Assembly: GCF_000020985.1 (NCBI RefSeq)
Contig: NC_011296.1
Location: forward strand, 620,001-684,000
Length of the DNA stretch: 64,000 nucleotides
Direction of reading: 5' to 3'
Source: Thermodesulfovibrio yellowstonii DSM 11347
GTDB lineage: Bacteria; Nitrospirota; Thermodesulfovibrionia; Thermodesulfovibrionales; Thermodesulfovibrionaceae
Positions 3,754 to 23,088 of the stretch are shown here, piece by piece. Under the pieces are notes generated by a model. That model made no database searches. It was not told where the DNA came from and saw only the letters and a program-made list of their open reading frames with translations. The translations under genes were made by a program, and so were the position numbers. How positions within the stretch are numbered: position 1 is the first letter of the stretch; the number at the start of each line of letters is the position of its first letter.

Positions 3754-4863
3754 ATGTATCAAAAATTTAAAGAAGTATTGGTATGTGTTGCTGGTGCTAC
3801 TCCACAGATAATTACTGAAACAATTTATGCCTTAGCTATGAAAGACCCTCCCATTTACATAGATGAACTCTACATTATTACAACTAAAAAAGGTGAAGAG
3901 ATAATAAAAGATGTTCTTATAGGAGGAGGTATTTTAAATTCTCTTTTTAACGAGTACGGTCTATCGCGAACAAAAATTACAGATATAATTACTATCAAAA
4001 ATGACAATATAGAGATTGATGATATAAGAAACACTGAAGAAAGTGAAGCAACTGCTGAAACTATAATTAGTTTCATAAGAAAGATTACTCAAAATCCAAA
4101 TATAAGGCTTCATTGTTCAATTGCAGGTGGAAGAAAAACAATGAGCTTTTATCTTGGCACAGCCCTTCAATTTTTTGGAAGGCCGCAAGATAAACTCTAT
4201 CATGTACTAGTCTCGCCAGAATTTGAGGCTAACCGAGAGTTTTTCTATCCACCTAAAAAACCACGGTGTATTAAATGTAGGATTGAGAATAGTTCTTTTA
4301 AAATGATAAGCACAGCTGAAGCAAAAATTGAACTTGCAGAACTCCCCTTTTTAAGGCTAAGGGATAAAATTGAATTAAAGGAAGGAACATTTAAGGAGCT
4401 TATGAAAATAAGTCAGAACGAAATTGATATTGCAATAATCCAGCCACAAATAAAAGTTAAATTAAAAGAAAGAGAAATAAAAATTGTCTCAGATGTATTG
4501 CTCCTTCCACCTGTAATGTTGACAATTTACTCCTTTTTTCTAAAAAGGAAAATTGAATGTGACAATGCAAAAGCTTGTCTGTCTTGTAATGACTGCTATC
4601 TTAGTCTTAATAAGTTGACTGAAGAACCATTTATTGATGAATTGGCTTCACTTTATGGATTTATTTACGATAAAGATCCAGTGAAAAGCAGCGAATTCAA
4701 GGAAAATTATACTCAAAAGTATGCCACTGAAAACTTAAGAAGCTATATTAGTAAGATAAATAGAAAAATCTCTCAAATTGTAAGTGATGGCTCTTCGTAT
4801 CACTACTGTCTCATTAAATCCATAAGGAAGTATGGTTCAACCTCTGTATGGAGTTCCAATTGA
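3754..4863 (+). CDS. CARF-domain CRISPR protein, NE0113/Csm6-like family
   Basis: The N-terminal 165 residues match the CRISPR-associated NE0113-type CARF family: VCVAGATPQ (10-18) at the first beta-turn, and SIAGGRKTMSFYLG (122-135) followed by a GR.QDKL.HVLVSPEFE block. CARF domains bind cyclic oligoadenylate made by Cas10. The C-terminal part (about 250-369) looks like a winged helix: helix LPPVMLTIYSFFL, a Cys insertion (C269, C275, C278, C281), a helix ending ISKINRKI, and a wing-like tail. No R-x4-6-H HEPN ribonuclease motif was found. Database names for this family call it a ring nuclease or Csm6; I cannot decide between cOA degradation and transcription control. It lies 104 bp upstream of csm1 on the same strand. 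Confidence 0.8.
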   Translation: MYQKFKEVLVCVAGATPQIITETIYALAMKDPPIYIDELYIITTKKGEEIIKDVLIGGGILNSLFNEYGLSRTKITDIITIKNDNIEIDDIRNTEESEATAETIISFIRKITQNPNIRLHCSIAGGRKTMSFYLGTALQFFGRPQDKLYHVLVSPEFEANREFFYPPKKPRCIKCRIENSSFKMISTAEAKIELAELPFLRLRDKIELKEGTFKELMKISQNEIDIAIIQPQIKVKLKEREIKIVSDVLLLPPVMLTIYSFFLKRKIECDNAKACLSCNDCYLSLNKLTEEPFIDELASLYGFIYDKDPVKSSEFKENYTQKYATENLRSYISKINRKISQIVSDGSSYHYCLIKSIRKYGSTSVWSSN

Positions 4864-4967
4864 TAAAAGAAGGATAAAAATAGTTTGAAATATTGTTGCA
4901 ACATTTTCTTTTAACGAAATGAGTGTAAAAGTTCAGTAAAATAAAAAAAACAATGAGGAGTTAAAAC

Positions 4968-7553
4968 ATGGTGGACAGAGAAATTTTAAAAATTGCCATT
5001 GCAGCTTTACTTCATGACATAGGTAAATTTTCAGAGAGAGCATCAGTTGAAATTCCTCAGGACTATGTTATTAATAATCAGGCTCTTTATCAACCTAAGT
5101 ATAACCACAGATATACCCACAGGCATTCTCTTCACACAGCTTACTTTTTTGATAGTTTTTCAAAATACTTACCAAAGCAAATACTTACTGATTCAACTGC
5201 AGATACTTCTCTCATAAATCTTGCAGCAATGCATCATAAACCCACCTCAGCAGAACAGTTAATTATAAGAGAGGCTGATATTTTAAGTAGTGGTATAGAG
5301 AGAAAAGAATTTGAAGAGCAAGACGCTCAAAGCCGAATGCCCAAGGAAATCCCCCTTTCAACAATTTTTGAGGATATTTCAATAAATGAGAACTGGAAAG
5401 AAAACAAACCAGAAAGTTTTAAGTTTGTTTATCCACTGGCAACTTTATCTCCTAAAAGCATCTTCCCTGTTGAGAAGAGTTCACTAAAACAAATTGATTA
5501 TAAAACCCTTTATGAACAATTTATAGAGCTTTTTAAAAAACTTCCTCATATTGAATATTCACCACTTTGGTTTGAACATCTTGACAGTTTACTTTTCCTG
5601 TTTACCAGCTCAATACCATCTGCTACCGTTACCAGAGATGACGCTGGAGATTTTAAAGAGATTATCACTGACATATCTCTCTATGACCACAGTCGCCTCA
5701 CTGCTGCAATTGCCACAGCATTTTATGCCTATCACAGAGAGACAAATTCTATAAATATAGATGCCATAAAAGACAGAGATATTGAAAAGTTTCTTCTCAT
5801 AGAGGGTAATTTTTACGGTATTCAGGATTTCATATTCTCTGATACAGGAGACACGAGAAAAAATGCTGCAAAGCTTCTAAGAGGAAGGTCTTTCTATGTG
5901 TCACTCCTTAGTGAGCTTGCATCAGATTTTATAGTTGAAAAGATAGGGCTGCCCTCAACCTCTATCGTTGTAAATGCAGCTGGCAAATTTAGAATGATCC
6001 TTCCAAATACTGAGAGAGCTATAAAACTTTTAGCGGAAGCAGAAAATGAAATTAATGATTGGCTTATTAAAAACTTCTATGGTGAAGTATCAATCGGTAT
6101 AAGTAGTGTAACAGCATCTTTTAATGTTTTAATAGATACTGAAACTCTGTCAGACATAGGGAAAAAACTTGGTAAAGTCTCAGAGGAAAGAAAATTCCAT
6201 AAATTTGACATTTTAAAGTATGCAGGGGCTAAAACAACCTATCTTAATGAATTTTCTTCTGAATTTGGCATATGCCCCCTATGTAACAGAAGACCTGCAG
6301 GGGACAGAAACAAGATAGATGACGAGCATCTTTGCGATGTGTGTTTTGATCATGTAAATATTGGAAGAAATCTAACATCAAAGGATTATATTGCGATTAC
6401 TTATAAAGATGCAGACTTGAAGGATAAGCTTAGAATTCCTATATATAACCGATATCAATTAGCTTTCATCACAGGCAAATTAAGAGACCTTGTTGAAGCA
6501 GGAAAAGTAAGGCATTTCTGGGATATAAACTCTCTCTGGCAGGAAGAACTACATTTAAGCAAAGAACTCTTTTCCATAAAACTTATTAACGCTTATGTCC
6601 CGAGATTTACAGAGGAACATAAGGATGCTGAGATATTGGAAAAATTGAAATATGATGAATCTGAAGAATCCCTCAAAGAAATAGATAACTTAATTAATTA
6701 TGGCGGAATTCTCAGCTTTGCTCACTTAGGAAAACTAAGTCTTCACAAAATTGATTCAGAATATCAGGGAGTCCCAGCTTTGGGAGTTTTCAAGGCAGAT
6801 GTAGATAATCTTGGGACAATATTCATGAAAGGGCTAAGGAAGGAAAAGAGAACTTTTTCCCGATATACAACTTTATCCAGACAGCTTAATCTGTTTTTTA
6901 CTCTTTATGTTCCTTATCTCTGCCGCACAGAATTTAAAAATATCTATACAGTTTTTACAGGCGGTGATGACTTGTTTGTTATAGGTCCATGGAAAGACAC
7001 CTTTGAATTTGCTCTTAGAGTGAAAGAGGATTTCAGTAAATACTGCTGTGAAAACAGGGAGATTTCCCTATCTGCAGGACTTTTCATTACAAAGTCAGAA
7101 ACACCAGTTATAAACATGGCTAAATTTTCAGAAGAAGCCCTTGATAAAGCAAAACAGAAGGGTAAAAACAAGCTTACAGTTTTTGATGTTTCAGTCTCTT
7201 GGGATGACCTTTCAAAACTTGCGGAGATTGAATCACATTTGCACAATTGGCTTGAAGAAGAAATAATAACAAAGGCTTTTTCTTATAAACTCAACGAAAT
7301 AGTAAAAATGGTGGAAGAAGAGATACATTTAAGACAGAGCAATTCTTTTGACCTATCAAGTTTGAATTCACTTACATGGAGGGCTAAACTTTACTACTCA
7401 ACTATAAGAAATGTGGCGAAAGGATATCCGAAGGACAAAAGAATTGAAATAGCAGAGGAAGTGCTTACACATCTAAGCCTTTGGCTTGAAAAATACAGGG
7501 AATCCATGAGGATTCCTCTCTGGAAAACTTTATACATGAGGAGGAAAGCATGA
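4968..7553 (+). CDS. csm1: Type III-A CRISPR Cas10/Csm1 large subunit
   Basis: The 861-residue Cas10 is the signature subunit of the Csm effector complex. An N-terminal HD nuclease domain is present (ALLHDIGKF, H16-D17, later HSLHTAYFF), a zinc-binding module starts at C436 (CPLC ... CDVC), and the second Palm domain has an intact TGGDDLF with GGDD at 665-668. Intact GGDD predicts cyclic oligoadenylate synthesis when target RNA binds, and intact HD predicts ssDNA cleavage. The start at 4968 has a GAGGAG Shine-Dalgarno. Its last 4 nt overlap csm2. The set of subunits downstream (csm2-csm5) marks subtype III-A and not III-B. Confidence 0.96.
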   Translation: MVDREILKIAIAALLHDIGKFSERASVEIPQDYVINNQALYQPKYNHRYTHRHSLHTAYFFDSFSKYLPKQILTDSTADTSLINLAAMHHKPTSAEQLIIREADILSSGIERKEFEEQDAQSRMPKEIPLSTIFEDISINENWKENKPESFKFVYPLATLSPKSIFPVEKSSLKQIDYKTLYEQFIELFKKLPHIEYSPLWFEHLDSLLFLFTSSIPSATVTRDDAGDFKEIITDISLYDHSRLTAAIATAFYAYHRETNSINIDAIKDRDIEKFLLIEGNFYGIQDFIFSDTGDTRKNAAKLLRGRSFYVSLLSELASDFIVEKIGLPSTSIVVNAAGKFRMILPNTERAIKLLAEAENEINDWLIKNFYGEVSIGISSVTASFNVLIDTETLSDIGKKLGKVSEERKFHKFDILKYAGAKTTYLNEFSSEFGICPLCNRRPAGDRNKIDDEHLCDVCFDHVNIGRNLTSKDYIAITYKDADLKDKLRIPIYNRYQLAFITGKLRDLVEAGKVRHFWDINSLWQEELHLSKELFSIKLINAYVPRFTEEHKDAEILEKLKYDESEESLKEIDNLINYGGILSFAHLGKLSLHKIDSEYQGVPALGVFKADVDNLGTIFMKGLRKEKRTFSRYTTLSRQLNLFFTLYVPYLCRTEFKNIYTVFTGGDDLFVIGPWKDTFEFALRVKEDFSKYCCENREISLSAGLFITKSETPVINMAKFSEEALDKAKQKGKNKLTVFDVSVSWDDLSKLAEIESHLHNWLEEEIITKAFSYKLNEIVKMVEEEIHLRQSNSFDLSSLNSLTWRAKLYYSTIRNVAKGYPKDKRIEIAEEVLTHLSLWLEKYRESMRIPLWKTLYMRRKA

Positions 7554-7981
7554 GTAATGGAGGATTACCAAAAATTGTTTTTTGGGCTGACGAGAAAGCT
7601 GAAATGATTAATCCAGATCTTTTTTCAACAGTAGCTGAGGCATGGGCAAAGAAGATTAAAGAAGTAGGTAAGATAGCTAAAGATAAAAATAAGATATCTC
7701 AGATACGAAAGTTTTATGATGAGGTATTATTGTTTTCAGATAGAGTAAAAAATGAAGATCAGTTCAAAAAAATGCTTCCTTACCTTAAAATGTTAAATGC
7801 AAAAGCAGCCTATGCAGATGGAAGGAATCATATAACAAAGGAATTTAAAGATTTCATTCAGGATTGTGTTTCTTTGGTTAACACTAAAAAAGATTTTGAT
7901 ATTTTTGTGAAATTTTTTGAAGCATTCATGGGTTTTTACAGATACTATGATGAATTATTTGATAGAAGAATGAGGAGGTAA
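7550..7981 (+). CDS. csm2: Csm2 small subunit of the type III-A complex
   Basis: The 143-residue, mostly alpha-helical protein lies between csm1 and csm3, where Csm2 is encoded. The C-terminal block ending VKFFEAFMGFYRYYDE resembles Csm2 families, and length fits the usual 120-150. Csm2 forms the inner filament of the effector and contacts crRNA-target duplex. The start overlaps the csm1 stop by 4 nt and has a GGAGGA ribosome site. Small-subunit sequences diverge fast, so assignment leans on position as well as sequence. Confidence 0.9.
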   Translation: MSNGGLPKIVFWADEKAEMINPDLFSTVAEAWAKKIKEVGKIAKDKNKISQIRKFYDEVLLFSDRVKNEDQFKKMLPYLKMLNAKAAYADGRNHITKEFKDFIQDCVSLVNTKKDFDIFVKFFEAFMGFYRYYDELFDRRMRR

Positions 7982-7984
7982 AAC

Positions 7985-8719
7985 ATGCAACTCAGAGAGA
8001 TTAAAACAATCAAGGGCACAATCAGACTTAAAACAGGCTTACATATCGGTTCAGGAAATACAGAAATGCAGATAGGCGGAACAGACAATCCTGTAATTAA
8101 GCATCCCTATACGAATGAGCCTTACATACCAGGGTCATCTCTGAAAGGCAAGATAAGAAGCCTTGTGGAGCTTTACTATGGAGTTGTTGCTGAGGCTACA
8201 AAACATGATGACATGATAAAGGCTGGAGGACTTGCGTCATCAAAAATGCTTGAGCAATCAAATGGTGGGATAAAAAAACACATTGAAAACATTCTCAAAG
8301 TTTTTGGCTCTGGAGCAGGAGATACAGATGAAAAGCTGGCAAAGCAACTCGGTCCCACAAGAGTGTCTTTTAGTGATTGTTTTCTGACCGATCAATTTAT
8401 TAAAGAAGCAGAGGAGAAAAGATGGAGCTATATTGAAGTTAAGTCCGAAAACAGAATCAACAGAATTACAGGAACAGCCGAGCATCCAAGATTCATAGAA
8501 AGAGTTCCAGCTGGAGCTGAGTTCAAATTAGAGATAAGCTTTAAGATTTTAAATAATGGAGAAGAGGAACTCTTTAAGAATTATCTATTGAAAGGGCTTA
8601 AACTTCTTGAGTATGACAGTCTTGGTGGGTCTGGTAGCAGAGGATATGGAAAAGTAGAATTCATCTTTGATGATGAAACTTTAAAAAGGGAGTATGATGA
8701 GATTAAACTTTGGGGGTAA
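7985..8719 (+). CDS. csm3: Csm3 backbone RAMP subunit, target-RNA nuclease
   Basis: This 244-residue RAMP protein forms the repeated crRNA-binding backbone. The N-terminus has TGLHIGSGNTEMQIGGTDNPV; the Asp in GGTDN aligns with the catalytic residue (D33 in characterised Csm3) that cuts target RNA at 6-nt steps. The conserved block YIPGSSLKGKIRS and the C-terminal Gly-rich loop LGGSGSRGYGKVEF are both present. A GAGGAGG site precedes the ATG, and it lies 3 nt after csm2. The Csm complex should therefore retain periodic RNA cleavage. Confidence 0.95.
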   Translation: MQLREIKTIKGTIRLKTGLHIGSGNTEMQIGGTDNPVIKHPYTNEPYIPGSSLKGKIRSLVELYYGVVAEATKHDDMIKAGGLASSKMLEQSNGGIKKHIENILKVFGSGAGDTDEKLAKQLGPTRVSFSDCFLTDQFIKEAEEKRWSYIEVKSENRINRITGTAEHPRFIERVPAGAEFKLEISFKILNNGEEELFKNYLLKGLKLLEYDSLGGSGSRGYGKVEFIFDDETLKREYDEIKLWG

Positions 8720-8722
8720 ACC

Positions 8723-9637
8723 TTGAAAACCTATTCAGTTAAAATAAAACCTCTCACAGGTTTTGGAGACTTTATAAAAGGAGACACGCTTTTTGGGCAT
8801 ATTTGCTGGCAACTATGCTATGACCCAAAAATATTTGGAAAGAGTCTTGATGAACTTCTTAATGACTATGATAAAAATCCTTTCATAGTCTTATCTTCAG
8901 CCTATCCTGTAGTAAACAACAAGATTTATCTCAAAAGACCCGCGTTACCGCTAAGCATGCTTTTTGATATCTCTGAGGAAGAAATTGTAAAAAATAGAAA
9001 GGAACTTAAAAGAAGAAACTATTTTGCTTTTGAACAACCACTAAATTTGCTAAGAAAAATCAATTATGAATCCTTATCTTTTTTCAAAGAGCAGGAGCAG
9101 ACAAGGTGTAGCATAAACAGGCTTACAAATACAACAACTGAACCACCTTTTGCTCCTTACAATGTAGGCAAAATTTTCTTTAATTGCGACTTGGTAGTTT
9201 TCGCAGGTTTGCGGGATGATATTAATATAAATTCGTTTCTTGAAATTTTGAGTCGTATTGGAAAACATGGTTATGGTAAAGATGCAACTGTTGGATACGG
9301 AAAATTTGATATTATCAGCTGGGAAGAGATTGATTTGTTAAATACCGCTAAGTCTCCAAATGCTCTATATACTCTGTCTCCTCTATGTCCTGACTCGGCT
9401 CAAACTGAGAAAATATATTTTAACCCTTTTGTAAGATTTGGCAGACACGGAGATATACTTTCAAAAAGCAAAAACCCCTTTAAAAATCCTGTAATATTTG
9501 CTGATGAGGCTGCTATAGTTTTTACAAAGGCAGAGATAATCAAGCCCTACATCGGAAAAGTGGTTAGAGATATCTCAAAAGCTTTACCAGAGGCAGTAAC
9601 CCAGGGATATAGCTTAGTAATTAAAGTGGAGGTATGA
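8723..9637 (+). CDS. csm4: Csm4 RAMP subunit capping the crRNA 5' tag
   Basis: The 304-residue RAMP protein starts with KIKPLTGFGDFIKGDTLFGH, the Csm4-type N-terminus, and has the RAMP Gly-rich segment IGKHGYGKDATVGYGKF in the middle. Csm4 binds the 5' handle of the crRNA and docks Csm1. Translation starts at a TTG at 8723, three bases after the csm3 stop and behind a purine-rich GGGGG site. It keeps the order csm3-csm4-csm5. Confidence 0.93.
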   Translation: MKTYSVKIKPLTGFGDFIKGDTLFGHICWQLCYDPKIFGKSLDELLNDYDKNPFIVLSSAYPVVNNKIYLKRPALPLSMLFDISEEEIVKNRKELKRRNYFAFEQPLNLLRKINYESLSFFKEQEQTRCSINRLTNTTTEPPFAPYNVGKIFFNCDLVVFAGLRDDININSFLEILSRIGKHGYGKDATVGYGKFDIISWEEIDLLNTAKSPNALYTLSPLCPDSAQTEKIYFNPFVRFGRHGDILSKSKNPFKNPVIFADEAAIVFTKAEIIKPYIGKVVRDISKALPEAVTQGYSLVIKVEV

Positions 9638-9638
9638 G

Positions 9639-10724
9639 ATGATTTATAATGTAAAATTACACACCGTAAGCCCGATTCACATTGGATGCGACCAGAGTTA
9701 CACTCCTGTTAATTTTGTAATAGATACTGACAAAAGTACTCTCATAGAGTTTGACCTTTGGGATTTCATCAATTCACTGGATGAAAAAGAGTATATAAAA
9801 TTAAGGGATATATCAGAGAATAAATCACCCATTGCACTTGTGTATCTATATAGATTCTATGCTGAAAGAAAAAACAGAATAAAGGGTAGAACTATTCCAA
9901 TTCCAAAAGAACTTGCTGATAGATACAGAGATGTTAAGCAATTCCAAAATGAAAGTGATGTTATCAGGGAATTTAATGAATTTGAAATACCAAAGACATT
10001 TTATAATCCCTACACAGGTAAACCTCTGATTCCAGGTAGTTCCTTAAAGGGCTCTATAAGGACAGCATACATTGAAGGATTAATCAAGGAAGAGGGTAAC
10101 GTTGCCCACTATAGAGATAGAGAGAAATACCCAAAATATACTGACATAGAAGAAAAGATACTGCAGGGTAAAACAAAAACCGATCCTTTTAGACTCTTAA
10201 AACTCAGCGACTTTGAACCTCAGGGAGAAGTAAAAACAGAGATAATCTTTCAAGTAAATGTACGAAAGCTAAATAACACATCAAAAGAATCTCTTTCTAT
10301 TCCGATAGAGATTATTCCTACAGGTAATGTTTTTAAAGGAACATTAGCAATAGAAGAGCCATTAGCTCATTCAGGTATATCTAAAAAGCTTGATTTGACT
10401 GAGCTATTGCTTAAGACTCATTCGCACTATGCAGGAATTTTTAACAAAGAGATTGACTTAAGAAAAATCAAGGGATTCAGTCTACCAAATCTTTCAGAGT
10501 ATAGAGAGATGTTTAAGCAAAAGTATTTTCTACTAAGACTGGGTAAGCACTCCGGTGCAGAGGCAGTTACATGGGAAGGGCTAAGAAAAATAAAAGTAAA
10601 AACAAAAGAGGGGACACAAATAATGGATTCATCAACTACAATATGGCTTGCCTCAAAGCAAAAAAAACCTTCTAATCTTTCAAGTACGACACCATTTGGC
10701 TGGGCTATTTTAGAGGTTTTATGA
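9639..10724 (+). CDS. csm5: Csm5 RAMP subunit at the crRNA 3' end
   Basis: The 361-residue protein begins KLHTVSPIHIGCDQSYTPV and has the RAMP block YTGKPLIPGSSLKGSIRTAY around 125-145, typical of Csm5. Csm5 caps the 3' end of the complex and is needed for crRNA maturation in studied systems. It starts 1 nt after the csm4 stop with a GGAGG site and ends 1 nt before cas6. All five Csm subunits are present and uninterrupted. Confidence 0.93.
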   Translation: MIYNVKLHTVSPIHIGCDQSYTPVNFVIDTDKSTLIEFDLWDFINSLDEKEYIKLRDISENKSPIALVYLYRFYAERKNRIKGRTIPIPKELADRYRDVKQFQNESDVIREFNEFEIPKTFYNPYTGKPLIPGSSLKGSIRTAYIEGLIKEEGNVAHYRDREKYPKYTDIEEKILQGKTKTDPFRLLKLSDFEPQGEVKTEIIFQVNVRKLNNTSKESLSIPIEIIPTGNVFKGTLAIEEPLAHSGISKKLDLTELLLKTHSHYAGIFNKEIDLRKIKGFSLPNLSEYREMFKQKYFLLRLGKHSGAEAVTWEGLRKIKVKTKEGTQIMDSSTTIWLASKQKKPSNLSSTTPFGWAILEVL

Positions 10725-10725
10725 G

Positions 10726-11622
10726 ATGAGGATAGAATATAAAAACATAGAATTTGAGCTTAAAGCTTTGACAGAGATAAAACTACCAGATTTCAAGGGT
10801 TCTGCCTTCAGAGGAGGTTTTGGGCATATCTTTAGAAAAATCACCTGCGTACTTAAGAGGCTTAATTGTCTTGAATGCCCACTAAAAAATCAGTGTATCT
10901 ATTCATATGTTTTTGAAACACCCCCTCTGGAGAATTCAAATATATTAAATATGAGCAATTATGAGAAAATTCCTCATCCTTTTATATTTGAGCCACCTGA
11001 AACAAAGAAAAAATTATTTCAACCAGAGGAAACTCTAAATTTAAAAATACTTCTAATTGGAAAAGCAATGGAATTTGCCCCTTATTTTATTTACACCATA
11101 TCTGAACTTGGAAAAGTTGGAATTGGAAAAGGTAGGGGTAAATTCACTGTAGAAAATATAAACATAGGTGAAAAGCTGTTGTTTCATCTTAATAACATAA
11201 ACATAAGAGAGTCGTACAGCGTTCTAAAAATCAGAGCAATAACTCCATTAAGAATTAAATACAATCGCGACCTTGTAAGAGACATTGAATTTCACATACT
11301 GATCCGCTCCTTATTAAGAAGGCTTAGCCTTATTTATTATTTTCACATAAAACCTGAAATTTTAATACATGAACCAAAAGAACTTATAAGGAAAGCAGAG
11401 ACGGTCAAAAAAGTTCAAGATATAACATTCTGGTATGACTGGGAGAGGTATTCATCAAGACAGGACAAACGAATGAAGCTTGGTGGAGTTATTGGAGAGA
11501 TAATCTATAAGGGGAATATATCTATATTCATTCCATATGTAAAGGCTGGTGAAATCCTGCATGTTGGCAAAGGAACAAGTTTTGGATTGGGCAAGTACGA
11601 GATTGTTGAGTTCTCAACTTGA
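10726..11622 (+). CDS. cas6: Cas6 pre-crRNA endoribonuclease
   Basis: The 298-residue RAMP endonuclease cleaves CRISPR repeat RNA. It has an FRGGFGHIFRK segment near residues 27-37, a Cys cluster CLECPLKNQC around 45-54 found in a Cas6 subgroup, and the C-terminal Gly-rich loop GKGTSFGLGKYEI. Together with Csm1-5 this completes effector maturation. It is the last gene before the leader and array and is co-oriented with the array. Which residues act as general acid/base is not clear from sequence. Confidence 0.92.
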   Translation: MRIEYKNIEFELKALTEIKLPDFKGSAFRGGFGHIFRKITCVLKRLNCLECPLKNQCIYSYVFETPPLENSNILNMSNYEKIPHPFIFEPPETKKKLFQPEETLNLKILLIGKAMEFAPYFIYTISELGKVGIGKGRGKFTVENINIGEKLLFHLNNINIRESYSVLKIRAITPLRIKYNRDLVRDIEFHILIRSLLRRLSLIYYFHIKPEILIHEPKELIRKAETVKKVQDITFWYDWERYSSRQDKRMKLGGVIGEIIYKGNISIFIPYVKAGEILHVGKGTSFGLGKYEIVEFST

Positions 11623-12029: not shown

Positions 12030-13918
12030 GTAGGAAACAAGACCTCATTTAAAAGGGATTGCGACTTCATTGCTTATTTTATCAATTTCATCTTCAACTT
12101 GTTTGTAGGAAACAAGACCTCATTTAAAAGGGATTGCGACTTCTCTTTTAAATAGATATCGTGAGGGCAAATTTTGTAGGAAACAAGACCTCATTTAAAA
12201 GGGATTGCGACCTAAAGTATCCTTTATCTCTTGTATAAGAGATTGGTAGGAAACAAGACCTCATTTAAAAGGGATTGCGACATAATTTGATAGTTCTAAA
12301 TCTTGTCCTATTATCTCAGTAGGAAACAAGACCTCATTTAAAAGGGATTGCGACCGCTAGTTGGTATAACTACATGATAAAAATCAGTTGTAGGAAACAA
12401 GACCTCATTTAAAAGGGATTGCGACTTTTTCTTTTTTACAATATTCTCTACTTCTTTGTAGGAAACAAGACCTCATTTAAAAGGGATTGCGACATCAAAA
12501 ACCACTATTTCCTTTGCTTCTTTTTGTTGGTAGGAAACAAGACCTCATTTAAAAGGGATTGCGACTTTGACTATGTCATTTGTTTGACATGGGAAAGTTG
12601 AGTAGGAAACAAGACCTCATTTAAAAGGGATTGCGACCAATTTCAATTAATTCTTTCATTTTCCCCTCCGATGTAGGAAACAAGACCTCATTTAAAAGGG
12701 ATTGCGACTTCAAGTCCCATCTCCTTGTAAATTTTCTTCTTCTCGTAGGAAACAAGACCTCATTTAAAAGGGATTGCGACTTTAAGGCGGCGATAAGTGT
12801 CTCTTGCTTTTGTCCTGTAGGAAACAAGACCTCATTTAAAAGGGATTGCGACCCATTTTTACCTCCCTTTTTGGTTTTGTAAAAAGTAGGAAACAAGACC
12901 TCATTTAAAAGGGATTGCGACTAATTGGTTTAATGATACCCCGATATGGGTCCAATGTAGGAAACAAGACCTCATTTAAAAGGGATTGCGACATTTTGTT
13001 CCTCTTCCTTTGCCCACTCCCAATCTGTAGGAAACAAGACCTCATTTAAAAGGGATTGCGACATAACGTATCATATCAAATATTACAAGGATTTTCCCTG
13101 TAGGAAACAAGACCTCATTTAAAAGGGATTGCGACTTAATCCATAAGTTATATTGTCTTCTTTAAAATAAGTAGGAAACAAGACCTCATTTAAAAGGGAT
13201 TGCGACATCCATTTTTGAGTGCATTTTCAAAGACCTGAAGTCGTAGGAAACAAGACCTCATTTAAAAGGGATTGCGACCAAGCACTATAGCAGCACCACC
13301 GCACACAAACCCAAGTAGGAAACAAGACCTCATTTAAAAGGGATTGCGACTGCAGTAAACGCAATAGGCGGCAGAGTTATGTCAGGTAGGAAACAAGACC
13401 TCATTTAAAAGGGATTGCGACGGCTTTTCCTTTGCAGCATCAATTGCTGCAACTTGTAGGAAACAAGACCTCATTTAAAAGGGATTGCGACGATATGAAA
13501 CCAGAGGATACTTATTCATTATGTTGTGTAGGAAACAAGACCTCATTTAAAAGGGATTGCGACATAAAACCTCCTATATGTTTCATTTCTTCTTTAACTG
13601 TAGGAAACAAGACCTCATTTAAAAGGGATTGCGACCACACATAGTAACATAAGTTGTAACGGCAACATGTAGGAAACAAGACCTCATTTAAAAGGGATTG
13701 CGACTCAAAGAATCCCAGAAGGGTGCACCAACTATCTGTGTAGGAAACAAGACCTCATTTAAAAGGGATTGCGACATGAATCATTGTATTGTAGTCCTGA
13801 TAGCAGATTCTGTAGGAAACAAGACCTCATTTAAAAGGGATTGCGACTTAAAATACTCAGTTGTGGTTGTCCTGCTCTTTATGTAGGAAACAAGACCTCA
13901 TTTAAAAGGGATTGCGAG
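12030..13918 (+). CRISPR. CRISPR array, 27 repeats of 36 bp and 26 spacers
   Basis: Repeats begin GTAGGAAACAAGACC and end GGGATTGCGAC (36 bp), with the first at 12030-12065 and the last at 13883-13918. Spacers are 32-39 bp, mostly 34-37. All repeats I read are identical except the last, whose final base is G instead of C, marking the leader-distal end. The repeat end gives an 8-nt ATTGCGAC crRNA handle like the ATTGAAAC tags of type III crRNAs, so transcription runs left to right from the cas6 side. The array follows the csm operon, so it presumably feeds the Csm complex. Short ORFs read across the array are artefacts. Confidence 0.98.
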
Positions 13919-14543: not shown

Positions 14544-16166
14544 ATGAAATTTCTTAAAGATTTACGGATTAATTTAGCTAAAAAATTAATACTTAAAAAG
14601 AAAGAAGACATATTTTTACTTGATAAGATTGAAATAGACTTAAAGGGAGGAAGCCCAGTTAAACTTAAAATTCCTCCTTTCCCTACGCCTCAGAATATAG
14701 AACACCAATATTTTCAGAAACCATTAGTTAAGGATTATAATGTAAATTTCCCCGATTGTAAACATACTTGTATGTATCGTATTTCAAAAGATAAATTACC
14801 TGAAATCTCTGTTTTTGAAATAAGGGGAAAACTTTTCTGCCCTAAAATAAAAGCTTTTGCAGTTAATTTAGGTAACCCCGTGGTCATTGGAATGTCTTAT
14901 AAAAAATACGAAAGAAAGGATAGGGTGTCAACCTTATTCCCTGTTAGTGATGATAAACTTTGTATTCACGGTATTGAAAGAAAGTTATGTTCTATTTGCA
15001 ATCAAAGATTACAAAATAAAAAAACACCAATTAAGTCTAATTTTTTTCAATTAATTTTACCCATTCTCCAACCTCCATTAGGTGAAAATTTTGATAATCC
15101 GATTGCTTTTCAAAATAAATTGAAGTTATATCCCTTTAAAATAGATGGAGTTAAATTTTTAGCCAATCATAAACAGGCAATACTTGGAGATGAGATGGGA
15201 CTGGGAAAATCTATACAAGCAATTGTTGCAATAAGATTACTATTCAGAATTGGGGAAATAGTCAATGTAATAATAGTTTGTCCAAAATCAGTGCTAACTG
15301 ATTGGAAGAAAAAATTAAACGATTGGGCTCCTGAATTGAAAGTTGTAAAAATATGTGGCACTCCAGAACAAAGAAAAATTATCTGGTACTTTCCCGCGCA
15401 TGTTTATCTAATAACTTATGATACGTTAAGGCAGGATGAGAATGTATCAAAAAAAGATTTTGATCTGGTTATATTAGACGAAATTCAGAAAATAAAAAAT
15501 CCAAGCTCTGGAATTCCAAAAGCAGTCAGACAAGTTAATGGTAAAATTCGCTGGGGATTGTCTGGGACACCATTGGAGAATCACCTTGATGAGCTTGTGT
15601 CTATTTTTGCTTACATTAAACCAGGGCTTTTAACTTATAATGATGTTCAAAATCTTAAGAAGATTAAAGATTTAATTAATCCATTTTTTCTTAGGAGAAG
15701 AAAACAAGATGTTCTGAAAAAACTTCCTAAAAAAGTTTATGAAGAAGTTTGGCTTGAACTTACACCTGAGAGGAAAGCATATAATAAAGTTGAGCAAGAG
15801 GGAATTGTTACTTTAAAAAAGCAAGGAACATCTGTAACAGTTCAACATATTTGGGCATTAATTTCAAAATTGAAACAAATTTGTAATTTAGACCCTATAT
15901 CAAATGAAAGTTGTAAACTTGAATATCTTCCTGTTGCCATTCAAACAGAAGACAGAACTCATAGAATTGGGCAGAAAAAAACTGTATTTGTTTCATCACT
16001 TTTTACTGTTAATACAATAGAAGAGCGAATACAAAATATTCTTAACAAAAAGAAACAACTCTTTAAAGAGGTTATTGATCACTTGAGTGATACAAGATTA
16101 TCTAAAATTTTATCTGAAGAAGATTTGTTCAGCCTTTTTAATATCAAAAAATCTAAGAGTAAATAA
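14544..16166 (+). pseudogene. SNF2-family helicase with internal deletion
   Basis: The 540-residue frame has a SNF2 N-terminal helicase lobe: Walker A GDEMGLGKS near 214, DEIQ near 312, motif III LSGTPLENH, and the RRRKQDVLKKLP segment. A Cys/His patch C-x-H-G...LCSIC lies near 135-150. The C-terminal lobe is broken: sequence jumps from ESCKLEYL to PVAIQTEDRTHRIGQ (motif VI, near 472), where intact SNF2 proteins have over 100 residues carrying motifs IV and V. The junction is near 15925-15935 and stays in frame. Such a protein should not translocate on DNA. With the frameshifted neighbour it appears to be a dying accessory cassette, perhaps once a mobile or defence module. Confidence 0.75.
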
Positions 16167-16315: not shown

Positions 16316-17479
16316 ATGAGTTTAAAAATTCTTCATACTTCTGATTGGCATTTGGGAAAAGTTTTCAAAGAGACCACCTTTGAGCTTTTACCAATTCAAA
16401 AGCAGATAATGGACGAAATCGTTGATATTACCAGAAAAGAAAACCCTGACATTGTATTAATTGCAGGTGATATTTTTGACACATACAATCCTTCCTTTGA
16501 AGCTGAGAAAATTTTTTATGAAACTCTTTCAAGGCTTTCCGAGCAAAACTGTTTTGTATTTGCTCTCGCTGGCAATCATGACTCACCTGACAAGCTTCAA
16601 ATATCAAAACCTTTAATAGCTGGTAAACATTCAATCTTCATAAAGAGCACAGCCTTTGATGAATCTAAGGATATTGAATTTGAAAATGAAAATTTTAAGC
16701 TCGCTCTTGAGAATTCATTTCTAAAACTACACTTAAAAAATGAAGGAACAGTTATAGCATTAAAATGTCTGCCCTATCTTTCAGAGGTTAGATTAGGATT
16801 AGCCGGTGATGAATATCTTAAAAAGGTCAATGAACTCCTATCCATTGAGCCACAATTTAGTTGTGATTACTTTTTATTGACGAGTCATCTGTCTATAGCA
16901 GGTGCTCAACAGTCTGGTTCTGAGAGGATTTTTCAAATTGGTGGCATTGAATATATTCCTATAGATTTTTTACCCAAAAGTGCTCACTACATAGCTCTCG
17001 GGCATCTTCATAGACATCAAAAACTAAGAAATGCTACTTACTCAGGTTCAATCTATCCCTTTGACCTTGCTGAGATAGAGCATAAAAAGGGAGTTTCTGT
17101 ATGGGAAAACGGTAAGCCTGATTTTATAGAATTTAACAAAATTCCAAAGATAAGAAAGATTGAATTTGATTCTCTTGAAGATGCAGTAAAGAATGCACCA
17201 GAGGATGAGGCATACTATTATGTATTAATAAAAAATCCGCATGCTTATACTACCGCTTCAATTGATGCATTACTTAAAGCATACAGAAATAGACTGGTAA
17301 ATTGGCAGTTTTATACTCCTGATGTTCCAGAAGAAATTTCAATTCCAGAACTTCACTCTTTGAATGAAGAAGAGATGTTCATAGAATTCTATAGGGCAAA
17401 GTTAAACAAAAAACCTTCTCAGGATATTTTGAGTCTTTTTCTAAAAACATTGGAAGAGGTGAAAAATGCTACCAATTAG
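16316..17479 (+). CDS. sbcD: SbcD nuclease subunit (Mre11-like)
   Basis: The 387-residue metallophosphoesterase has all Mre11/SbcD motifs: TSDWHLGK at the N-terminus, AGDIFDTYNPS, AGNHDSPDKL, a LTSHLSIAG block, and ALGHLHRHQ. SbcD with SbcC forms an ATP-regulated nuclease that opens hairpins and trims blocked DNA ends. A purine-rich AAAGAGGTG site precedes the ATG. It overlaps sbcC by 14 nt. It starts a same-strand run that continues through sbcC into the cas2-cas1 genes. Confidence 0.96.
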   Translation: MSLKILHTSDWHLGKVFKETTFELLPIQKQIMDEIVDITRKENPDIVLIAGDIFDTYNPSFEAEKIFYETLSRLSEQNCFVFALAGNHDSPDKLQISKPLIAGKHSIFIKSTAFDESKDIEFENENFKLALENSFLKLHLKNEGTVIALKCLPYLSEVRLGLAGDEYLKKVNELLSIEPQFSCDYFLLTSHLSIAGAQQSGSERIFQIGGIEYIPIDFLPKSAHYIALGHLHRHQKLRNATYSGSIYPFDLAEIEHKKGVSVWENGKPDFIEFNKIPKIRKIEFDSLEDAVKNAPEDEAYYYVLIKNPHAYTTASIDALLKAYRNRLVNWQFYTPDVPEEISIPELHSLNEEEMFIEFYRAKLNKKPSQDILSLFLKTLEEVKNATN

Positions 17480-20400
17480 CTTAATTTTTGAGGGATTAAA
17501 CAGCTATGCCCGTGAGGTAAAAATTGATTTTACAAAATTTTACAGGACAAAGCTATTCGGTATATTCGGTATCACGGGAGGAGGTAAATCAACTATACTT
17601 GATGCAATAATTCTCTCAATTTACGGTAAAACACCAAGACTTGCTTCAACAAAAATCAAAGAAGCAATAAATCCACAAAGAGGGGTAATTAATATTGAGT
17701 TTACCTTTGAAATCGGGAGAAGAAGATTTAAAATCCAAAGGGGTATAGACCAAAGGGAGACCCAAATAAGGCTTTACAGGCTTGAAGAAGACAAAGAAAT
17801 CCCTATTGCAGAAAAATCAAACGAATTTAATGAAAAAATAAAGGAAATAATAGGGCTCTCCTATGAAGAATTTTGTAAAGTCGTGATTCTTCCACAAAAT
17901 CAGTTTGCGGAACTTTTACGGCTTGAACCTGCCAAGAGAGCTGAACTAATAGGTAACTTATTTGACCTAAACTACTTTGGTGAGCCTCTATATAGCAAGT
18001 TTTCAGAAAAATTTTTAAAACTTGAGTCAACGATTCAAGACAAACAAAGAAGACTCAATGAACTTTCTGAAATTTCACAGGAAAGCATTATTAACAAAGA
18101 AAGAGAGGTTGATGAGATAACAAAGGCTCTCGGCGAACTAAGACAAAAACAGAAAGAATTGATGGAAAAGCTTAATATTCTTAGAAATTTCAAACAACTT
18201 AGCGATAAAAAGAAAGAACTTGAGAGAGAACTCCAAAAAATGGAAACAAAAAAGATAGAAATAGAGAGCTTAAAAAATAAAATTCAGATGGATGATGAAC
18301 TTGCTCCGTATAAAAAATCATTTGAAGAATTAAAAAATCTTAAAAAATCAATAGAGGCTAATAAACAAAAACATGAAGAACTTGCCAGAGAATTAAAAAT
18401 CATTGAAAGCAGGTTTGAAAAACAAAGAGAACAAAAGGAAGAATTTGAAAAGTTTTTTTCTCAGAGAAATGAAGAGTTAATAGGAAAAATCAAAGAAAGT
18501 GAGCAATTGGTTGAGCTTGAACAAGAGATTAAAAGTCTTTTAGATAAAGAGCAGCAGAGAGCAAAAGAGATGAAAAAGCTTAATCTTGAGTTTAAAGAAG
18601 TTGATGAACAGTTGAAAAGAATTGACACTGAAACTACTCAATTAATGAAAAATATTGAAAAAAATAAAGCTCTTTTTGAGAACACTCAATTGAATGATGA
18701 AGAATTAAGGCTCTATGATTTGCTTCCAAATGCTTTATTAAAACTAAATGAGATAAAAAATCTTAAAGAAGAAATTGAGATATTAATCAAAAAAACTGAA
18801 AGAGAAAGAAAAAAGTGGGAAGAAAGCTTTGCCCAAATTCAGAAAGAGTTTAGGGATAGATTTAATTTAACGATAGCTACTTATGAGGAGATTGATTCGG
18901 TCATAGTCGCAAAAACCGAAGAAATCAAAGAGTTAAAGGATAAGCTTTTAAGAGAGCTTGATGAGTTTAAAGTTAAGAATCTGGCGTTTACCTTAAGCAA
19001 AACATTGTTGGAGGGGAAACCTTGTCCCGTGTGCGGAAGCACTGAACATCCAAAACCAGCAGAGAGTATAGATGATAAAAATATTGCACTGAGGGAAGAA
19101 AAACTCAAAGAAGTGGATGAAAACATATTTAAAATTGAGGACGTTAAAGCAAAAATAAAACCCTTAATGGAAAAGGTGTTTATTTCAAAGACAAATATTG
19201 AAACCTATGCTAAAGAGATTTCAGACAAAAAATCCAAACTAACAAAGGCTGAGCATGAACTTTCTCAGATTATTTCGGTGAAACTCTGGGCTAATGCTGA
19301 ACAATTATTTGAACAAATTAAGAACAAGAAAAAGAAAAATGATGAAGTAATGAAAGAGTTAAATTATCTAAACAGCGAATTTCATGAAAAGATGAAACTC
19401 AAAAATGATGTAACTCAAAAAAGAGTTGAGATTTTCACAAAGATTCAGCAAACACATAAGGAACTGGAAGAAATTAAAAAAGATACAAAGGAAAAGAAAG
19501 ATAAATTAAATGAAAAGACAGGGGGTAAAACTTCTTATGAAATCAAAACAGAAGCAGAAAAAGAACTTGAGATAATCAAAAAGAGAAGTTTACAACTTGA
19601 AAATGAACTCAAAGACTTAGACATTAAAAAACAAAACACTCTCATTGCAATGGAGAGAATTACGGAAGGAATCAAAAAAGACGAACAAAAGCAGAAAGAG
19701 ATAAAGGCAAGCTTAGATTTAAAAGCAAAGGAAATGAGAATTGATGTATCCGAGCTTGCTGCCATAATTCTTGATGAGGAAACAAAGAAATCCTTAAAAA
19801 ACACAGTGGAAGAATTTGAGAAAGAATTTAACAAAGCAAAAGGAGCTCTGGATAACATACTTAAGAATCTTGAAGAAATTCCCATAAAGGCAATACAACC
19901 TGATGAATTACAGGAGACCGAAAAATTTATTGCTGAAACAAACGACAAAATTGCTCAATCAAATGAAAAATTGGGCACACTAAAGGAGCAGATAAGAAAG
20001 GAAAAAGATATGCTCAAGGAAAAACAACTTCTTTCAAAAGAAATAACTTTAATGGAAAATGAATTTGAAAATGTAAAGCTACTCAAAAATCTTACCTATG
20101 GGAAAGAGATGGTTAAATTTTTTTCCTGGCAGTTATTAAAAGAAATCGTTAAATTGACAAACGGAATCCTCAGAACTCTCATTGGCAGAAGATTTTCAAT
20201 CAACGTAAATCCTAATCTTGAATTTACCGTTTCAGACCTTCTTTATAACAAAGAGCGTTCAGTAAATACTCTTTCTGGTGGTGAGACTTTCATAGTTTCT
20301 TTTGCTTTAGCCCTTGCCCTTTCAAGCTATATTCAGAGCAAAAGAATGAGAGCCATACAGTTCTTTTTTATAGATGAGGGATTTAGCTCCCTTGATAGAG

Positions 20401-20561
20401 AACTTCTTGATTCTGTATGTGCTGTATTAAATGAACTCAAATCACAGGATAGACTTGTTGGGCTCATATCTCATATTGAAGAACTTAAACAGGTTATACC
20501 GAATAGTATAAATATAAAAAGGGATATAACAGGCTCAAGCATAGTAACCTTTAATGTGTAG
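17466..20561 (+). CDS. sbcC: SbcC ATPase subunit (Rad50-like)
   Basis: The 1031-residue SMC-like ATPase has a P-loop GITGGGKSTILDAI near 36-49, long heptad-rich coiled coils (about 180-880) interrupted by the zinc hook CPVCGS near 520, then signature motif NTLSGGETF and Walker B FFIDEGFSSLD near the C-terminus. SbcC tethers DNA ends and gates SbcD. The start has a GAGGTG site and overlaps sbcD. The stop is only 9 nt before cas2, so sbcDC and the adaptation genes are likely one transcript. Confidence 0.96.
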   Translation: MLPISLIFEGLNSYAREVKIDFTKFYRTKLFGIFGITGGGKSTILDAIILSIYGKTPRLASTKIKEAINPQRGVINIEFTFEIGRRRFKIQRGIDQRETQIRLYRLEEDKEIPIAEKSNEFNEKIKEIIGLSYEEFCKVVILPQNQFAELLRLEPAKRAELIGNLFDLNYFGEPLYSKFSEKFLKLESTIQDKQRRLNELSEISQESIINKEREVDEITKALGELRQKQKELMEKLNILRNFKQLSDKKKELERELQKMETKKIEIESLKNKIQMDDELAPYKKSFEELKNLKKSIEANKQKHEELARELKIIESRFEKQREQKEEFEKFFSQRNEELIGKIKESEQLVELEQEIKSLLDKEQQRAKEMKKLNLEFKEVDEQLKRIDTETTQLMKNIEKNKALFENTQLNDEELRLYDLLPNALLKLNEIKNLKEEIEILIKKTERERKKWEESFAQIQKEFRDRFNLTIATYEEIDSVIVAKTEEIKELKDKLLRELDEFKVKNLAFTLSKTLLEGKPCPVCGSTEHPKPAESIDDKNIALREEKLKEVDENIFKIEDVKAKIKPLMEKVFISKTNIETYAKEISDKKSKLTKAEHELSQIISVKLWANAEQLFEQIKNKKKKNDEVMKELNYLNSEFHEKMKLKNDVTQKRVEIFTKIQQTHKELEEIKKDTKEKKDKLNEKTGGKTSYEIKTEAEKELEIIKKRSLQLENELKDLDIKKQNTLIAMERITEGIKKDEQKQKEIKASLDLKAKEMRIDVSELAAIILDEETKKSLKNTVEEFEKEFNKAKGALDNILKNLEEIPIKAIQPDELQETEKFIAETNDKIAQSNEKLGTLKEQIRKEKDMLKEKQLLSKEITLMENEFENVKLLKNLTYGKEMVKFFSWQLLKEIVKLTNGILRTLIGRRFSINVNPNLEFTVSDLLYNKERSVNTLSGGETFIVSFALALALSSYIQSKRMRAIQFFFIDEGFSSLDRELLDSVCAVLNELKSQDRLVGLISHIEELKQVIPNSINIKRDITGSSIVTFNV

Positions 20562-20570
20562 GCAATAAAT

Positions 20571-20849
20571 ATGAGAGTACTTTACATAATAGCCTACGAT
20601 ATAACAGATGCGAGAAGACTTGGACAGATAAGATATTTTCTTAAAGGTTACAGCACGGGTGGTCAAAAGTCTGTTTATGAATGCTTTCTTGAAAGAGAAG
20701 AACTAAAATTTATAATTAGCAAAATAAAACGATTAATTAATCCCAATGAAGATAGAGTTCACATTTTCAGAATTGATGGAAGAAGCAAAGTTATTACACT
20801 TGGCATAGCAGTGCCCCCAATTGATCCAGAGTATTTTTACATAGGATAG
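20571..20849 (+). CDS. cas2: Cas2, first copy
   Basis: The 92-residue ferredoxin-like protein has the Cas2 first-strand motif YIIAYDITDARRL with D10, and GGQKSVYECFLE at strand 2. Cas2 bridges two Cas1 dimers in the spacer integration complex. It precedes cas1 by 4 nt, reversed from the frequent cas1-cas2 order. It starts 9 nt after sbcC with only a weak ribosome site, consistent with coupling to sbcC translation. Confidence 0.94.
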   Translation: MRVLYIIAYDITDARRLGQIRYFLKGYSTGGQKSVYECFLEREELKFIISKIKRLINPNEDRVHIFRIDGRSKVITLGIAVPPIDPEYFYIG

Positions 20850-20853
20850 AGTC

Positions 20854-21810
20854 ATGAGTACAGTGTTTATAGACAGAAAAGATATAGAGATAAGAGTTGA
20901 TGGAAACTCAATCAGCTTTTATGCGAAAGGCAAGAAAGACGGTAGCCTTCCTTTGTCACCTTTAAAGAGAGTGGTTATAGTAGGAAATGTTAAGATTGAG
21001 ACCTCGGTTTTGTATAAACTGGTAAATCACGGAATTACTGTGCTTTTTCTTACTGGCAAACTTAAATATAGTGGTATATTAAATGGTCCACTCCACAACA
21101 ACGGATTGTTGAGAGTTAAGCAGTATCAAAAATCTCTTTCTGGTTTTTCTTTAAAGTTTGCAAAAGAGCTAATAAAAAGAAAAATAGTCTCTCAAAGGGA
21201 TTTTCTCTCTGAAATCAGGGAGATAAAAAAAGCTTTGGCTATGCAGGCAGATAGAGCAATTGAAATACTTAATAAAGCTATATCAAACATTGAAGTAACA
21301 CCCATATCAATAGATTCCTTAAGAGGTATAGAAGGTGCTGCTTCTTCAATTTACTTTATTACCTATTCAAAAATTTTTCCAAACTCTTTGAAATTCGTTA
21401 GAAGAATTAAGCGTCCACCAAAAGATCCTGTAAATGCTATGCTTTCTCTTTGTTACACTCTGCTACATTATGAAATTGTGAGAGAAATTCAATTAATTGG
21501 ACTTGACCCTACAATTGGTTTTTATCATCAATTTGAATATGGAAGAGAGTCTCTTGCCTGTGATTTAGTTGAACTTTTCAGAGTTAATGTGGACAGATTT
21601 GTATATGAACTTTTTAAGGCAAAACATTTGGGGAACAGAGACTTTATGAAGGATGAAGAGTCAGGTGGAGTATATCTAAAAAAAACTGGCAGAAAAAAAT
21701 TTTATCCCCTTTATGAACAATGGGTTCAACAACAGAGAACCATTTGGAGAGGGGAGGTGCAAGGATTTGCAAGAAGAATACTTGAAGAAAAGGACATTAT
21801 ATCTGGTTGA
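20854..21810 (+). CDS. cas1: Cas1 integrase, catalytic copy
   Basis: The 318-residue protein inserts spacers into the array. An N-terminal beta domain (1-80) is followed by the helical catalytic domain. Metal ligands are all visible: Glu160 in LRGIEGAASS, His225 in GFYHQFEYG, and Asp237 in SLACDLVELFR, matching E141/H208/D221 of E. coli Cas1. PVNAMLSLCYTLL matches the conserved NALL helix. Length is normal. Its 3' end overlaps the next cas1-like frame. Confidence 0.95.
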   Translation: MSTVFIDRKDIEIRVDGNSISFYAKGKKDGSLPLSPLKRVVIVGNVKIETSVLYKLVNHGITVLFLTGKLKYSGILNGPLHNNGLLRVKQYQKSLSGFSLKFAKELIKRKIVSQRDFLSEIREIKKALAMQADRAIEILNKAISNIEVTPISIDSLRGIEGAASSIYFITYSKIFPNSLKFVRRIKRPPKDPVNAMLSLCYTLLHYEIVREIQLIGLDPTIGFYHQFEYGRESLACDLVELFRVNVDRFVYELFKAKHLGNRDFMKDEESGGVYLKKTGRKKFYPLYEQWVQQQRTIWRGEVQGFARRILEEKDIISG

Positions 21811-22585
21811 AAAAGGCAACGGAACAACTGTAAGCAGAGATGGTCCTTCAGTTTTAATAGAAAGAAATTTTGCCGCGCCTGTAAGAATTCCTGCAGATTA
21901 TATTGATAAAGTCATAATTTACGGAAATGTAGAAATTGATGCCTTTTCAATAACGCTTTTTTCTTCTAAATTTATACCAATTTTGATTATAGGCAGACAT
22001 GAGGAATCCTCTATAATACTCCCAAATACAAGTGAATTAAAAAGCTATACTAAATATCAGATAATGATGCTTGATTCAAAGAAAATTGTTGAGAGCTTTA
22101 TTAATTGGATTAAAGAAAGAAGAGCACAGAATCAGAAAAAAGTCCTAAATAGTCTCTTTGAAAACATCTCTATATCAATAGAGGCAGAAGATAGAAACTA
22201 CAATGTAATGATTAACAAAATCAAACCCTCTGATTTTCTATGGAGCAGGGTAAAAGAGATAATGCAAAATTTAATAATCATAACAATTCTTTCAAACCTT
22301 ATAAAATTCAAATTAGATCCTCACATAGGAGTAATCAATCAGGGATATAATTATGGTTTAGTGTTTGATATATATCAGATCTATGAACCCTATGCAGACT
22401 TTTTAACCTTTCAATTTTTTTATGCTGACGGAGCGAATATTGATTTTATAAAAAATCCAGATTTGAACTATGATAGACTCAGGTTTCTGATAGATAAATT
22501 TGAGAAGAAGAAAGATGACATTGAGCAAGAACTTAATTCGTCAATAGCTCAAATACTTTCTTTTCTAAGGAGTATATCCACATGA
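21767..22585 (+). CDS. Second, divergent Cas1-like protein, probably catalytically inactive
   Basis: The best start is a TTG at 21767, 9 nt after a GGGGAGG site inside cas1, giving 272 residues; an in-frame ATG exists at 21713 without a good site. The N-terminal beta domain is recognisable (TLYLVEKGNGTTVSRDGPSV; IIYGNVEIDAFSI). In the helical domain the segment LDPHIGVINQGYNYG aligns with LDPTIGFYHQFEYG of the neighbouring Cas1, but the catalytic His is Asn191. The Gly-x-Glu helix carrying the first ligand is missing or shortened; only an Asp (201) near the third ligand remains. A structural partner role in the Cas1-Cas2 complex is the simplest guess. It overlaps cas1 by 44 nt and the second cas2 by 4 nt. 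Confidence 0.8.
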   Translation: MQEEYLKKRTLYLVEKGNGTTVSRDGPSVLIERNFAAPVRIPADYIDKVIIYGNVEIDAFSITLFSSKFIPILIIGRHEESSIILPNTSELKSYTKYQIMMLDSKKIVESFINWIKERRAQNQKKVLNSLFENISISIEAEDRNYNVMINKIKPSDFLWSRVKEIMQNLIIITILSNLIKFKLDPHIGVINQGYNYGLVFDIYQIYEPYADFLTFQFFYADGANIDFIKNPDLNYDRLRFLIDKFEKKKDDIEQELNSSIAQILSFLRSIST

Positions 22586-22857
22586 GATTGCCTTATCTTG
22601 TATGTTATGACATATCAGATGAAGGCAGACTTAATAGAGTTTACAGATTTATGAAAGGAAAAGGTTTTCATATTCAGTATTCAGTATTTTATTGTATTTT
22701 AACTGATGTTGAGTTAAAAGAGATGAAAGCAGAAATACTAAAGTTAATACACTCAAGATACGATGATGTAAGAATATATCCCTTGCCAAACAACTCACTT
22801 GTAGCAGTTTTAGGAGTTGGAGACAGGATTCCAGATGGTGTAGAGGTTTTTTATTGA
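22582..22857 (+). CDS. cas2: Cas2, second copy
   Basis: The 91-residue protein has the Cas2 motif YLVCYDISDEGRL (D10) and the strand-2 segment QYSVFYCIL. It is clearly different in sequence from the first Cas2, so it is not a recent duplication. An AAGGAG site precedes the ATG, which overlaps the stop of the second Cas1-like gene by 4 nt. It closes the order cas2-cas1-cas1-like-cas2. Pairing with the inactive Cas1-like protein is inferred from this coupling. Confidence 0.92.
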   Translation: MRLPYLVCYDISDEGRLNRVYRFMKGKGFHIQYSVFYCILTDVELKEMKAEILKLIHSRYDDVRIYPLPNNSLVAVLGVGDRIPDGVEVFY

Positions 22858-23015
22858 TAAAACATAGTACCATCTTTTTTCTGATTGATAGCGAAGAATC
22901 CTGCCTCGAGTCTTCTTCATCTGCGCGAAAGTTACTGAAAATAGAGACTAAAATGTAGATAAAATATTGCCCTAAAGGGAAAGGAGCATTTTTAATAAAG
23001 ATTTTATCAATTAAG

Positions 23016-23088
<73 letters not shown>

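Follow-up and report, generated by a model that had tools for sequence, protein, structure and literature searches.

A four-gene CRISPR adaptation module pairing an active Cas1 with a probably inactive Cas1 paralogue in Thermodesulfovibrio yellowstonii

A 64,000-nucleotide stretch of the Thermodesulfovibrio yellowstonii DSM 11347 genome (assembly GCF_000020985.1, contig NC_011296.1, positions 620,001 to 684,000; hereafter the window) carries a CRISPR adaptation module with two cas1 and two cas2 genes. The genes lie on the plus strand in the order cas2A-cas1-cas1L-cas2B (20571-22857) and all four open reading frames (ORFs) are present. The second Cas1, termed Cas1L, belongs to Cas1 both in sequence and in predicted fold and has lost catalytic residues that are invariant in its neighbor. 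The favored interpretation, to which we assign a probability of roughly 0.55, is that the products of the four genes assemble into a hetero-oligomeric spacer integrase of type III systems with Cas1 as the catalytic subunit, Cas1L as a structural subunit and Cas2A and Cas2B as the core. A preliminary description made from the DNA alone knew of no system of this kind. Likewise, neither the four-gene cassette nor an adaptation operon with a dedicated inactive Cas1 was found described in open-licence full-text papers; subscription papers and the supplements of CRISPR classifications lay outside this search, and an earlier mention is possible.

Fold and active site of Cas1L

Pfam and NCBIfam profiles identify both small proteins of the module as Cas2 and the 318-residue protein as Cas1. 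The window Cas1L matches Pfam Cas_Cas1 (PF01867) over residues 35-151 with an E-value of 7.4e-10 and 38.9 bits (gathering cut-off 22.3), and falls under the NCBIfam Cas1 equivalog cut-off (26.7 versus 71.7). A sequence search of the Protein Data Bank (PDB) with Cas1L alone gave a single weak, irrelevant match. AlphaFold2 (AF2) was used to model the window Cas1L with 50 relatives, which resulted in a predicted local distance difference test score (pLDDT) of 91.3 and a predicted template modelling score (pTM) of 0.90. The PDB fold matches listed for this model are all Cas1 or casposase. A very divergent proteobacterial Cas1L was modelled with a pLDDT of 92.1, and its top PDB matches are also Cas1 or casposase. 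Both models have the N-terminal beta domain and C-terminal helical domain of Cas1. Cas1L is assigned to Cas1 by predicted fold because confident models of two divergent members match Cas1 in the PDB. A Cas1 profile match and a single-chain structure prediction were among the checks proposed in the preliminary description, and both came out in favor of a Cas1. Cas1L and Cas1 are 24% identical over the N-terminal domain, compared to 15% over the catalytic domain, the pattern predicted for a protein that preserved its shape and contacts and gave up its chemistry.

To compare the active sites, 86 module Cas1 and 82 Cas1L proteins were aligned together, with columns numbered by the window Cas1. E160, H225 and D237 are invariant in 86/86 module Cas1 proteins. 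The window Cas1L has a gap, an Asn and an Asp at these columns, and so does not have the Glu-His-Asp metal-binding triad of a catalytic Cas1. These residues are those given in the preliminary description for both proteins. Across the Cas1L family, the Glu is found in 14/82 members, the His in 36/82 and the Asp in 76/82; the 46 members without the catalytic His include 17/17 of the proteobacterial type. The surrounding motifs are also almost entirely gone. An LRGxEG-like motif is present in 77/86 Cas1 versus 1/82 Cas1L, RRPPxDPVN (counted as RPPxDPVN) in 83/86 versus 0/82, and YGRxS in 80/86 versus 0/82, and the window Cas1L has none of the three. The acidic columns conserved in at least 90% of Cas1L proteins (D24, D200 and E245 of A5) all have counterparts in active Cas1. 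A relocated catalytic triad, which would have spoken against the preliminary description, was rejected since the family as a whole conserves no additional acidic or His column. Judged from sequence, Cas1L is probably inactive, though not in every member.

Distribution and inheritance of the cassette

Cas1L alone was used to search 396 genomes of the phylum Nitrospirota and a sample of 369 genomes of the gammaproteobacterial class. Strong matches (E below 1e-40) were found in 46 of the Nitrospirota genomes (~12%) and matches with E of 4e-29 or better in 20 of the gammaproteobacterial sample (~5%), which refutes the idea that the gene is a remnant confined to one strain. Cas1L was absent from the plasmid collection searched. 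When 84,980 species were scanned with Cas2A as bait, 80 loci came up in Nitrospirota, in delta-, gamma-, beta- and alphaproteobacterial genomes, in Aminicenantes, Solibacteraceae and other groups; several of these are contigs of metagenome-assembled genomes (MAGs) and may be binned wrongly. Removal of duplicates left 75 loci in several phyla with all four genes, and the recurrence of the gene order that the preliminary description had asked for is thereby established. Among the Cas1L-query matches taken up as loci and covered by enough sequence, the order cas2A, cas1, cas1L, cas2B holds in all except a decayed copy in genome G009 (L020/L039; L039 9703-10496), where a deletion removed cas1 and joined the start of cas2A to the end of cas1L. 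The cas2B of this naturally decayed module is shortened and its csm operon is intact.

CRISPR arrays are visible within the DNA covered at 49/75 of the four-gene loci, and cas10 or RAMP genes were recognized at 27/75 through their resemblance to proteins encoded in the window. PADLOC reported Cas10, Cmr3, Cmr4 or CARF effectors at other four-gene loci. Where typing is possible, the module goes with type III systems, both III-A and III-B.

The cassette of Nitrospira MAGs is interrupted by a multicopper-oxidase gene cluster after cas2A, ahead of cas1-cas1L-cas2B; in L203 (3000-15300) the cluster lies between a CARF-type gene with cas2A and cas1-cas1L-cas2B-cas6. A reading of the Nitrospira cas2A as a separate stand-alone system was rejected, as cas1-cas1L-cas2B follows the cluster. 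Long frames around the Cas1L of L138, L149 and L154 were considered as fusions and dropped because in GC-rich DNA a frame measured from stop to stop begins long before the gene itself.

A phylogeny that included 28 other Cas1 proteins separates the module Cas1 proteins by a single branch (96) and the Cas1L proteins by another (99); Cas1L branches are long and its finer placement is unsure. Pairwise distances of the four proteins across the 75 loci correlate with r of about 0.85-0.90, far above permutations, which indicates that the cassette is inherited as a unit. The ratio of nonsynonymous to synonymous substitution rates (dN/dS) was calculated for two unsaturated close pairs. Values of 0.147 and 0.192 for Cas1L, compared to 0.114 and 0.113 for Cas1, indicate that Cas1L is under purifying selection.

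A proposed heteromeric integrase and its alternatives

In known complexes the four Cas1 chains are identical and half of them are idle as enzymes. The Escherichia coli integrase contains two asymmetric Cas1 dimers on a Cas2 dimer, in which Cas1a alone catalyses and Cas1b contacts Cas2 (PMC10011333). Inactive Cas1 subunits form the walls of the repeat channel in Pseudomonas Cas1-2/3 (PMC12259127), and in the casposase catalysis falls to chains B and D and not to chains A and C (PMC6977970). The proposed mechanism divides the two Cas1 roles between two genes. Cas1 would be the permanent catalytic protomer, and Cas1L, pairing with the active Cas1, would be the permanent non-catalytic, Cas2-binding protomer, a dedicated counterpart of Cas1b. 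A Cas2A/Cas2B pair would form the core of the integrase, and the built-in asymmetry of such a complex might serve repeat positioning or spacer orientation. The structural role in a hetero-oligomeric integrase that the preliminary description suggested finds indirect support here. The data show the genes and their conservation and co-inheritance, the Cas1 fold, the missing catalytic residues and purifying selection; from these we infer the Cas1-Cas1L heterodimer, the Cas2A/Cas2B pairing, any role in orientation, and the assembly and function of the complex. Cas1L fits a fixed Cas1b because its fold is kept, its chemistry is lost, its gene is flanked by an active cas1 and a second cas2, which it overlaps by 4 nucleotides in about half of the loci, and it is co-inherited with them. 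Both Cas1L models fit casposase chains A/C with template modelling (TM) scores of 0.67-0.69, compared to 0.43 for B, the sole catalytic chain listed; this fit hints weakly at a noncatalytic conformation.

Several points weigh against the heteromeric integrase. The casposase chain preference lacks a control of an active Cas1 folded likewise. The two distinct Cas2 proteins could form two separate homodimers. By column, all three letters E, H and D occur in 7/82 Cas1L proteins, without the surrounding motifs, and the preliminary claim of a probably inactive second Cas1 is thus upheld by sequence for the window protein and most members but not for these. Finally, cas2A-cas1-cas2B without cas1L is found at L143 (Thiobacillus), L150 (Cardiobacterium hominis) and L153 (Micavibrio); a two-Cas2 module therefore does not require Cas1L. 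No separate cas1L was found elsewhere in these three genomes, only weak matches to its N-terminal part within longer Cas1-type frames. These loci have the makeup of a two-Cas2 integrase with one Cas1.

The main rival, possible but distinctly less probable than the heteromeric integrase, places Cas1L and Cas2B outside the catalytic hexamer as an accessory that selects or protects prespacers, or as a dominant-negative brake on acquisition by Cas1. Prespacer selection and protection are elsewhere the job of Cas4 or DnaQ, and the Pfam and NCBIfam matches of the four window proteins contain no Cas4 domain. Translational coupling of cas1L and cas2B in about half of the loci, through a 4-nucleotide overlap, agrees with an accessory pair, and the three-gene modules suggest that Cas1L may be an add-on. 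The same modules also count against the pair, since the persistence of cas2B where cas1L is absent indicates that cas2B is not a private partner of Cas1L. The coupling of a dead Cas1 to its own Cas2 in the preliminary description is not strict, as the Thiobacillus, Cardiobacterium and Micavibrio loci show. It would be surprising for a brake to be retained in nearly all modules across phyla beside long arrays.

A reading in which Cas1L has kept enzymatic activity, through a rearranged active site assembled from the surviving Asp, a His immediately following LDP and a further acidic residue, is improbable. This His (the column of T220 of the window Cas1) is present in 57/65 Nitrospirota-type Cas1L proteins and is not the usual Cas1 residue, and 74% of Cas1L proteins have a D, E or Q one helical turn past the Glu column, which may be a helix cap. 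Retention of the Asp237 column and the seven members with all three original letters also fit an enzyme. The proteobacterial branch conserves none of these substitutes and has uniformly lost the catalytic His, and the near-complete loss of the three active-site motifs argues in the same direction. A functionless, decaying duplicate is already contradicted and very improbable. Cas1L evolves faster than Cas1 and the G009 copy is a deletion-fused remnant, but a dN/dS of 0.15-0.19, an intact frame at a fixed position in 75 non-redundant loci of several phyla, and descent as one ancient clade are not the marks of decay.

With canonical Cas1-Cas2 of E. coli type I-E and its relatives (PMC10011333), the heteromeric integrase would share the Cas1 fold, the pairing of Cas1 with Cas2, adjoining arrays, and Cas1 dimers that are asymmetric in function, only one chain of each being catalytic. 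In the canonical systems one gene product fills both Cas1 roles and Cas2 is a homodimer, whereas the Thermodesulfovibrio module has a pair of genes for each protein, and one of its two Cas1 proteins is without an active site. RT-Cas1-Cas2 is likewise an adaptation module tied to type III, and its structure shows non-catalytic Cas1b protomers; it differs in having one Cas1 gene, one Cas2 gene and a fused reverse transcriptase (RT) (PMC8102632). The window Cas1 has no RT or Cas6 fusion, Cas1 is its only Pfam match, and the window module has no RT fused or next to cas1. The Methanosarcina mazei casposase tetramer (PDB 6opm), which both Cas1L models match, is an integrase of the Cas1 fold in which two subunits catalyse and two do not; unlike the module, it is a transposon-borne homotetramer from one gene, without Cas2. 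An incomplete active site is also known in a Cas1 homologue previously described as a probably vestigial outgroup. Cas1L differs from that protein in its place in a CRISPR adaptation operon beside an active Cas1 and in being under purifying selection.

A further step, which we regard as tentative and rather unlikely, is that these proteins are an undescribed class of four-protein CRISPR integrase, with separate genes for the two Cas1 roles and for each half of the Cas2 core, in which built-in asymmetry, not the protospacer-adjacent motif or Cas4, sets the prespacer end that is integrated first and hence the orientation of spacers in RNA-targeting type III systems. Such systems need spacers copied in an orientation that is useful against transcripts, and the module would make the question of spacer orientation testable. 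If the heteromeric integrase is real, it would be a natural asymmetric integrase in which the structural role of Cas1 can be studied separately from catalysis. The module is frequent enough for study in cultured hosts, for example Tepidimonas.

The module and its neighborhood in the window

The features of the locus are collected in Table 1. The preliminary description of two Cas2 proteins flanking two Cas1 proteins is correct, and the run is overlapping only in part: cas2A and cas1 are 4 nucleotides apart, cas1 and cas1L overlap, and cas1L and cas2B overlap by 4 nucleotides (ATGA). The ATG-to-stop ORF of cas1L spans 21713-22585 and encodes 290 residues. The TTG at 21767, which gives a protein of 272 residues, is the likely start rather than the ATG and is preceded by the Shine-Dalgarno-like AGGGGAGG. 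The Cas2A family has the signature KGYSTGGQKSVYECFL and a conserved C-terminal tail that ends in PxYFYIG, and 32/92 positions are invariant in an alignment from 20 loci. Aligned Cas2B proteins have the signature motifs HxQYSVFYC and DDxRIYPL.

Table 1. Features of the adaptation module and its surroundings (window coordinates).
Feature	Position	Strand	Description
Type III-A effector operon	3754..11622	+	Cas_NE0113 (CARF-type), cas10/csm1, csm2, three RAMP proteins, cas6
CRISPR array	12030..13918		27 copies, 36-nucleotide repeat
SNF2-family gene	14544-16166	+	540 residues; between CRISPR array and sbcD-sbcC
sbcD-sbcC	16316-20561	+	Two genes between SNF2 gene and cas2A (ORF reading)
cas2A	20571..20849	+	92-residue Cas2; Pfam CRISPR_Cas2 5.5e-17
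cas1	20854..21810	+	318 residues, catalytic Cas1 with E160, H225, D237; Pfam Cas_Cas1 3.1e-80
Shine-Dalgarno-like AGGGGAGG	21750..21757	+	Putative, read from sequence; inside 3' end of cas1, upstream of probable cas1L TTG
cas1L	21767..22585	+	Cas1 paralogue without catalytic Glu/His; Pfam 38.9 bits, AF2 pLDDT 91.3
cas2B	22582..22857	+	91 residues, second Cas2; Pfam CRISPR_Cas2 1.6e-19
tRNA-Lys	23015-23088	-	~160 nucleotides downstream of four-gene module

The adjacent cas1 and cas2 genes have a CRISPR array nearby, as in an adaptation module, and the csm operon with its cas10 and RAMP genes associates the locus with type III. The last base of the final repeat copy deviates from the other copies, and for this reason the leader of the array is probably on the low-coordinate side. 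Two more Cas1 genes, of the ordinary type, are found elsewhere in the genome, which is one contig of 2,003,803 bases.

The sbcD-sbcC genes end 9 nucleotides upstream of cas2A. The same arrangement is found in G010 (L025), and in most other relatives the pair is not beside the module; this nuclease pair could have a lineage-specific part in prespacer generation. The SNF2-family gene beside the array is preceded by an ORF of 155 residues and seems to be without much of its C-terminal helicase part, and is possibly a decayed copy. The tRNA-Lys gene downstream of the module may mark where a mobile CRISPR island is bounded.
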